The translations under genes and the position numbers were made by a program. From positions 1 through 62,078 of the forward strand of contig JAUIIQ010000004.1 of assembly GCA_030431585.1 (NCBI GenBank): a DNA stretch of 62,078 nt, read 5' to 3'. Source of the stretch: Gammaproteobacteria bacterium. GTDB lineage: Bacteria > Pseudomonadota > Gammaproteobacteria > Pseudomonadales > Halieaceae. Positions 59,773 to 62,078 of this stretch are shown here, in pieces; the stretch's first letter is position 1; every line of letters starts with the position of its first letter. Below the pieces are notes generated by a model that saw nothing but the letters and a program-made list of their open reading frames with translations, searched no databases and had not been told where the DNA came from.

Positions 59773-60369
59773 ATGAGTAGCGATGGCGTAAATTCCGGCA
59801 GGAGGAAGTTCCTGACGGCTGCCACCAGTGCGGTGGGCGTGGCCGGCGTGGTTGGTATAGCCGTGCCCTTTGTTGGTTCCTGGAACCCATCAGCCAAGGC
59901 CAAGGCGGCGGGCGCACCGGTCAAGGCCGATATCGGCAAACTGGAGCCTGGCCAGATGGTCGTAGTGGAGTGGCGTGGTAAGCCCGTGTATGTCATGCGT
60001 CGTACCGCATCACAGCTGGAAGACTTGCCCAAGCTGGATGGCGATCTGAAAGATCCGCAATCAGAGATCTCCGAGCAACCGGCGTACATTACCGGCGAGG
60101 CGCGCTCCCTGCGTCCGGAACTGCTTGTGGTGGTGGGTTTGTGCACCCACCTGGGCTGTGCGCCCAAATTCCGCCCTGAAGTAGGTGCCGCCGACCTCGG
60201 TGGTGACGAATGGCTGGGCGGCTTTTTCTGCCCTTGTCACGGTTCCAAGTTTGACCTGGCCGGGCGCGTCTATTCCGGCGTGCCGGCTTCTACCAACCTG
60301 GTGGTTCCCCCGTATTCCTTCGAGGGTGACAACGTTCTGGTAATTGGCGTGGATGCGGAGGCTGCCTGA
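59773..60369 (+). CDS. petA: Ubiquinol-cytochrome c reductase Rieske iron-sulfur subunit
   Basis: GRRKFLTAATSAVGVAG Tat-like N-term; CTHLGC and CPCHGSKFD cluster motifs. Confidence 0.98.
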   Translation: MSSDGVNSGRRKFLTAATSAVGVAGVVGIAVPFVGSWNPSAKAKAAGAPVKADIGKLEPGQMVVVEWRGKPVYVMRRTASQLEDLPKLDGDLKDPQSEISEQPAYITGEARSLRPELLVVVGLCTHLGCAPKFRPEVGAADLGGDEWLGGFFCPCHGSKFDLAGRVYSGVPASTNLVVPPYSFEGDNVLVIGVDAEAA

Positions 60370-62078
60370 TGATTAATATGCTTACTGGTTTACGCGACTG
60401 GGTTGATGATCGACTACCCATCATGCGTGCGTGGAATACGCACATGGGCAAGTACTACGCGCCCAAGAATTTCAACTTCTGGTACTTCTTCGGCGTCCTC
60501 TCCCTCGTCGTGCTGGTTAACCAGCTGCTGACAGGCATCTGGCTTACCATGAACTACACGCCCAGTGCCGAAGACGCATTTGCATCCGTTGAGTACATTA
60601 TGCGCGATGTGGATTACGGCTGGATTCTGCGCTACATGCACTCTACCGGCGCCTCGGCCTTCTTTGTCGTGGTCTACCTGCATATGTTCCGTGCAATGCT
60701 GTACGGCTCCTACAAGAAGCCACGAGAGTTGATCTGGATCTTCGGCATGCTCATCTTTGTGGTGCTGATGGCAGAGGCCTTCGTAGGCTATGTGCTGCCG
60801 TGGGGGCAGATGTCCTACTGGGGCGCCCAGGTGATCATCTCGCTGTTCGGCGCGATCCCTGTAGTGGGTGAAGATATCGTTACCTGGATTCGCGGCGACT
60901 ACCTGATATCCGGTGCTACCCTGAACCGCTTCTTCGCGCTGCACGTGGTGGCATTGCCCATCGTGCTGTTGGCGCTGGTGGTGCTGCACTTGCTGGCGCT
61001 GCATGAGGTGGGTTCCAACAACCCGGACGGAGTTGATATCAAGAAGCACAAAGGTCCTGACGGCGTGCCGCTGGACGGCATTGCCTTCCATCCTTACTAC
61101 TCAGTACACGACCTGCAGGCGATTGCTGTCTTCCTGTTCATCTTCTGTGGCGTGATCTTCTTCCTGCCAGAGATGGGCGGCTTTTTCCTGGAGTTTGCCA
61201 ACTTTGAGGAAGCCAATGCGCTGAAAACGCCTGAGCACATTGCACCGGTGTGGTATTTCACACCGTTCTACTCCGTGCTGCGCGCGGTGCCCGACAAGTT
61301 CTGGGGCTTTATCGCTTTCGCTGCCTCCGTGGCAATCCCCTTCCTGTTGCCCTGGCTGGATCGCAGCCCGGTCAATTCCTGGCGCTACCGCGGTAACATC
61401 ACCAGGGTGATGCTGGTGTTGTTTGTGGCGAGCTTCCTGATCCTGGGTGTATTGGGTGTCAAGGCGCCCACGGACTCGCGCACCTTCCTGGCTCAGATTT
61501 GCTCGGTCTTTTACTTTGCCTTCTTCCTCACCATGCCGATCTGGTCTTCCATAGACAAGACCAAGCCTGTGCCCGACCGTGTGACCATGGACGGTGGTAT
61601 CGGCTTCTGGGGCAGTATGGGTGGCCTCGCGCTGATTCTCGCGCTGACGATCCTGCCGCTGAAAGCGGTAGGGGCCGAGTCCGCTCACCCCTGTGGAGCG
61701 ATCGAATGCGACGAGTTCGTAGCTGACCCGGGCAACAAGCCGTCTCTGCAGAATGGGGCGAAGCTGTATATGAACTACTGCATGGGGTGTCACTCCCTGC
61801 AGTACTCTCGTTACAATCGTGTGGCTGCTGACCTGGGTATCCCCGAAGACCTGATGTTGAAACACCTGGTGTTTGATCCGGATGTGAAGATCGGCTCGCT
61901 GATGCACAATGCGATGGATGACCGCACCGCCAAGGTCTGGTTTGGCGCGACCCCTCCCGACCTGACGCTGGTGGCGCGCGCCCGGGCTGCGGTTGGTCGC
62001 ACTGGTCCAGAGTGGTTGTATACTTACCTGCGTTCGTTCTACAAGGACGACAGCCGGCCCTATGGCGTGAACAACAGG
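60369..62078 (+). CDS. Cytochrome b / cytochrome c1 fusion protein (FbcH-like), 3' end truncated by window
   Basis: Manual in-frame translation from ATG 60369 finds no stop to 62078; cytochrome b (MHSTGASAFFVVVYLHMF, VLPWGQMSYWGAQVI) leads into a signal-like TM (GGLALILALTILPLKAVGAES) and cyt c1 (AKLYMNYCMGCHSLQYSRYNRVAADLGI). Absent from supplied ORF track because it has no stop inside the window. Confidence 0.93.
   Translation, partial: MINMLTGLRDWVDDRLPIMRAWNTHMGKYYAPKNFNFWYFFGVLSLVVLVNQLLTGIWLTMNYTPSAEDAFASVEYIMRDVDYGWILRYMHSTGASAFFVVVYLHMFRAMLYGSYKKPRELIWIFGMLIFVVLMAEAFVGYVLPWGQMSYWGAQVIISLFGAIPVVGEDIVTWIRGDYLISGATLNRFFALHVVALPIVLLALVVLHLLALHEVGSNNPDGVDIKKHKGPDGVPLDGIAFHPYYSVHDLQAIAVFLFIFCGVIFFLPEMGGFFLEFANFEEANALKTPEHIAPVWYFTPFYSVLRAVPDKFWGFIAFAASVAIPFLLPWLDRSPVNSWRYRGNITRVMLVLFVASFLILGVLGVKAPTDSRTFLAQICSVFYFAFFLTMPIWSSIDKTKPVPDRVTMDGGIGFWGSMGGLALILALTILPLKAVGAESAHPCGAIECDEFVADPGNKPSLQNGAKLYMNYCMGCHSLQYSRYNRVAADLGIPEDLMLKHLVFDPDVKIGSLMHNAMDDRTAKVWFGATPPDLTLVARARAAVGRTGPEWLYTYLRSFYKDDSRPYGVNNR

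Follow-up and report, generated by a model that had tools for sequence, protein, structure and literature searches.

Cytochrome b/c1 polyproteins are known as a Bradyrhizobium oddity, in which the FbcH precursor has an internal c1 signal followed by an A-x-A site and is cut. The fbcFH genes of Bradyrhizobium japonicum and the FbcH cytochrome b/c1 precursor are the subject of Thony-Meyer et al. 1989 (as listed in PMC6256036). The locus described here is a petABC operon for the bc1 complex (complex III), with petB and petC joined into a single gene. It is unlike petABC of Pseudomonas, where b and c1 are separate chains from separate genes and petC, which starts in another frame, has its own Shine-Dalgarno sequence within petB; here there is no petB stop or petC start between the subunits, and that Shine-Dalgarno sequence has been lost. 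An earlier note on this DNA had likened it to FbcH and this reading is supported, as cytochrome b and c1 are encoded in one uninterrupted frame directly 3' of the Rieske gene, and an internal signal sequence with a predicted signal peptidase I site (A-x-A) lies ahead of c1.

A single reading frame for cytochrome b and cytochrome c1

The window, i.e. the whole stretch of DNA that was analysed, is the complete contig G000:C199 (62,078 nt), and the petBC frame sits at its right end (Table 1). As the earlier note had read it, the ATG at 60369-60371 overlaps the petA stop (the two share TGATG) and opens a frame that never closes in the window; translation to 62078 gives 570 codons and zero stops, with petBC directly downstream of petA in one operon. 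The same note held that the ORF track had missed this gene. It is indeed absent from the ORF list, because the frame runs off the contig end, but this was no true miss, since the frame is listed once open ends are allowed.

The suggestion that extending the contig would reveal the stop proved correct, as a second contig of the same assembly, C131, carries the rest of c1 in the same frame, with the stop at C131:489-491, giving a complete protein of 685 aa. Window positions 61938-62078 correspond to C131:3-143, a 141-base overlap with 1 mismatch, which is synonymous, and the two contigs were probably left unjoined because of strain variation in the assembly. Past the petBC stop, C131 carries an sspA-like gene and then an sspB-like frame (both assigned by inspection of the translations).

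The operon encodes the cytochrome b, c1 and Rieske domains of a bc1 complex. Pfam placed Cytochrome_B, Cytochrom_B_C and Cytochrom_C1 all in the petBC frame, each above its cut-off, and the H91/H105 pair is present; translation confirmed CMGCH of c1 at the position given previously (61779-61793). The petA product, by sequence reading, has an RRKFL signal and the cluster motifs CTHLGC and CPCHG. The closest solved relative of both halves of the fused protein is structure 8smr (b, E 1e-206 over query residues 10-406; c1, E 3e-36), which we take to be the P. aeruginosa bc1 structure.

Table 1. Features of the petA-petBC locus in window coordinates.
Feature	Position	Strand	Basis or remark
petA, Rieske iron-sulphur protein	59773..60369	+	read directly; operon neighbour of petBC
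GGAGG Shine-Dalgarno of petBC	60357..60361	+	sequence; 7 bases before ATG 60369
petBC, fused cytochrome b-cytochrome c1 frame	60369..62078	+	runs off contig; completed on C131:1-491
Cytochrome b part, residues 1-406, eight-helix core, Qo motif PVWY	60369..61586	+	Pfam; alignment to 8smr
In-frame Met407 of RVTM tail	61587..61589	+	weak upstream Shine-Dalgarno, -3.6 kcal/mol
Internal signal helix, residues 412-436, GFWGSMGGLALILALTILPLKAVGA	61602..61676	+	hydropathy; L009 homologue model
Cytochrome c1, predicted mature N-terminus ESAHPC at residue 437	61677..62078	+	Pfam; continues on C131
Haem c attachment motif CMGCH, residues 471-475	61779..61793	+	sequence

The predicted signal peptidase I site

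We conclude that petBC very probably encodes a polyprotein with an internal signal helix that is cut by signal peptidase I. In the mechanism that we propose, a single polypeptide would be inserted co-translationally, beginning with the eight cytochrome b helices, which would leave both the N- and C-terminal ends of this part in the cytoplasm. The former petC signal peptide would then act as a ninth, N-in helix that brings c1 to the periplasm, and signal peptidase I (LepB) would cut after AVGA at residue 436. With the cut at this position the signal helix would remain attached to cytochrome b, and is predicted to stay as its ninth helix; the products would therefore be a cytochrome b of ~436 aa (49 kDa) with the helix at its C-terminus and a c1 of ~249 aa (28 kDa plus haem), which would have a C-terminal anchor of its own. 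Synthesis of cytochrome b and c1 would presumably be equal. In the AlphaFold model of the L009 homologue the helix spans 409-431, at moderate confidence (mean pLDDT 67.5).

The proposal in the earlier note that VGA before the Glu is a signal peptidase I site agrees well with the pattern of conservation. Ala occupies -1 in 86/87 distinct fused junctions, the remaining one having Ser, and -3 is Val, Ala, Ser or Ile while neighbouring positions drift; these sites were counted with a pattern that seeks A-x-A, and the alignment shows the same column directly. AVGA itself occurs in 59 of the 87 junctions, the typical site being AVGA/E (slash, predicted cut). In Pseudohongiella relatives the site is displaced by a few residues and is still A-x-A (AEA or AHA). 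A gene for signal peptidase I is likewise present.

A fusion that stays uncut, i.e. one ~77 kDa polypeptide in which the junction helix permanently links cytochrome b and c1, seems improbable. At ~19-20 residues the hydrophobic run at the junction exceeds that of a typical cleaved signal; it could persist as an anchor, and the topology would allow such a link. However, no part of the junction is better conserved across deep families than the -3/-1 motif, which is gone where petB terminates after the helix, and Bradyrhizobium FbcH is itself cut. Signal peptidase I cutting is the best explanation because it fits the conserved site, the loss of the petC Shine-Dalgarno sequence and the family f14 helix without a site (both below), and on this sequence evidence the enzyme probably divides the fused protein in two.

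Just past the predicted c1 N-terminus there is a conserved CGxIxCD cysteine pair (window 61692-61712, and homologues), which also occurs in some unfused c1 sequences and is missing from others. These cysteines could form a disulphide.

Loss of the petC ribosome-binding site

The petB genes of unfused relatives end in ...KTKPVPERVTG-stop or ...RVTMK-stop, with the petC start inside the stop (TGATG or ATGA). The petC Shine-Dalgarno sequence of these relatives lies in the petB tail (GAAAGGGTGAC..TGATG), where it is read as the codons Glu-Arg-Val (GAA AGG GTG), and Arg is accordingly AGG in 29/54 distinct unfused tails compared with 2.5% of Arg codons in the b cores of the same genes. In fused genes the tail Arg is AGG in just 2/87, compared with 3.0% in the cores. 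The unfused and fused tails differ at Fisher p 4e-13, a value from rows that are not phylogenetically independent and that include some long-linker rows possibly anchored on an upstream Arg. Since AGG has fallen to the core level in fused tails, the petC ribosome-binding site has been left to decay, as expected if c1 is made only within the fusion. The earlier view that separate initiation of c1 is unlikely therefore holds.

The same results bear on the possibility that c1 is also, or only, made from a start at Met407, close to the junction, so that the fusion would be merely apparent, which we regard as very improbable. An in-frame Met is frequent in the tails (RVTM(D/N)GG), and the Met at 61587 is, as reported before, the only one at this junction, at codon 407. 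However, many fused homologues have none (RVTT, RVTD, RVQ, RVTG), the Shine-Dalgarno sequence is eroded, and a protein starting at Met407 would begin MDGGIGFW, i.e. a signal start with no positive charge.

We also considered Met407 as a relic of the petC start and rejected this, as it aligns instead with the petB-frame Met of the unfused RVTMK-stop tail; in relatives with this tail the petC start is in another frame, overlapping the petB stop. Met407 is thus presumably the counterpart of the petB-frame Met in RVTMK.

Distribution of the fusion

The fusion is the normal form of these genes in its family and in many neighbouring ones, and no peculiarity of one genome, which answers the question of its spread raised by the earlier note. 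The fused frame is unbroken in 8/8 genomes of the genus and in 100/120 genomes of the family (a hand count of match rows spanning the whole query), most of the others being fragments at contig ends. In the order sample, stop-free open frames of fused length are present in many families. DNA of 80 regions together with named relatives gave 189 classified loci, of which 92 are fused, 95 separate and 2 undecided; of the 47 family codes sampled in the order, 14 have the fusion (f1, f4, f9, f10, f11, f13, f16, f24, f25, f31, f42, f43, f45 and f47). Named fused records come from Halieaceae, Spongiibacteraceae (Zhongshania), Cellvibrionaceae (Gilvimarinus, Cellvibrio), Porticoccaceae and Pseudohongiella, and separate petB and petC are found in Pseudomonas (loci of which are among the named relatives), Halomonas, Marinobacterium, Thiobacillus and Burkholderia. 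No further fusion was found in the class sample of 104 genomes spread over the class, and the phylum sample gave one fused case, in an alphaproteobacterium-like genome (G487, 8.0 Mb; L185, a 706 aa frame).

An assembly or sequencing error deleting a stop or shifting the frame (near 61540-61600, as the earlier note had specified) is refuted, for although the gene reaches a contig end, the same unbroken frame occurs in more than 100 further genomes, including several assembled as one contig, and the C131 overlap carries it on.

Two members of the family have separate petB and petC copies of divergent sequence, G090:C31 (L188) and G058:C181 (L189); because G090 carries a fused copy as well, these are likely to reflect contamination or a second bc1. 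In the single-contig genome G039 the fused gene has a frame break within its cytochrome b part (C1:3504833-3506523, L191), which is either a sequencing error or a pseudogene.

Variants and origin of the fusion

In 18 fused loci (L022, L023, L025, L026, L048, L122-L124, L132, L136-L138, L140, L149-L152 and L193) an insert of ~60 aa with two apparent transmembrane helices lies between the last b helix and the signal helix. This long-linker form occurs in at least six family codes and is patchy within families. As two is an even number, the extra helices preserve helix parity and hence the topology.

In family f14 (L145, L146, L147 and L153; petB e.g. L145:2008-3336, minus strand) petB and petC are separate. 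Here petB has at its end a ninth hydrophobic helix (RVTMDGG...LTVGPL...) that is homologous to the fused signal helix and has no AVGA site, and the petC signal is of the conventional MKK type, new or different. The f14 arrangement is either a re-split fusion or an intermediate. The b tree places f14 among the fused genes (96% SH-aLRT), which suggests a secondary split; the AU test did not reject a position outside the Cellvibrionales-type fused rows (p 0.43; b alone, 0.28), and the c1 data (AU p 0.20 and 0.28) did not place f14. We tentatively raise the idea that the former signal helix is a working ninth helix of complex III that was kept after splits such as f14, or else that f14 preserves a stage at which petB had acquired the helix and this did not yet serve as the c1 signal. 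On the ninth-helix reading, if true, complex III would have gained a new structural element through the fusion.

The number of changes needed between the fused and separate states is 3 on the joined b + c1 tree and on the reduced b tree, 4 on the c1 tree and 5 on the first b tree, which kept long and suspect rows and was followed by the reduced tree. The AU test did not reject a single fusion for all (p 0.51). Two fusions, one in Pseudohongiellaceae and one in the Cellvibrionales-type families, are equally possible as one; the junction is RVTG-R in the former and mostly RVTM-D in the latter.

Significance and comparison with known systems

The results indicate that complex III is as a rule made from a b/c1 polyprotein in a large, mostly marine group of Gammaproteobacteria, i.e. 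Halieaceae, Spongiibacteraceae, Cellvibrionaceae, Porticoccaceae and Pseudohongiellaceae. We found no description of the fusion in this group in the open-access literature, which does not imply its absence elsewhere; KEGG has an orthology entry, K00410, that is presumably the b/c1 fusion, and databases may therefore already list such genes. For annotation, the warning is that these genes encode two subunits. The unfused sisters, the long-linker form and f14 provide a natural series on the origin of fusions between membrane subunits and on whether a leftover signal helix joins the enzyme, and the f14 and long-linker forms are the least expected part of the results.

The joined petB-petC is no new kind of system; it is a fusion like FbcH that occurs in another class and is general within its clade. 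Like Bradyrhizobium fbcFH, it has a Rieske gene and, after it, a single gene for cytochrome b and c1, and the FbcH-like alphaproteobacterial locus in G487 (L185, 706 aa, AKA/A) has the same anatomy as the fused genes here. It differs from fbcFH in belonging to another class, with unfused lineages between the two and an unrelated junction sequence, and, unlike in Bradyrhizobium, the fusion is here the rule in many families and has a long-linker variant.
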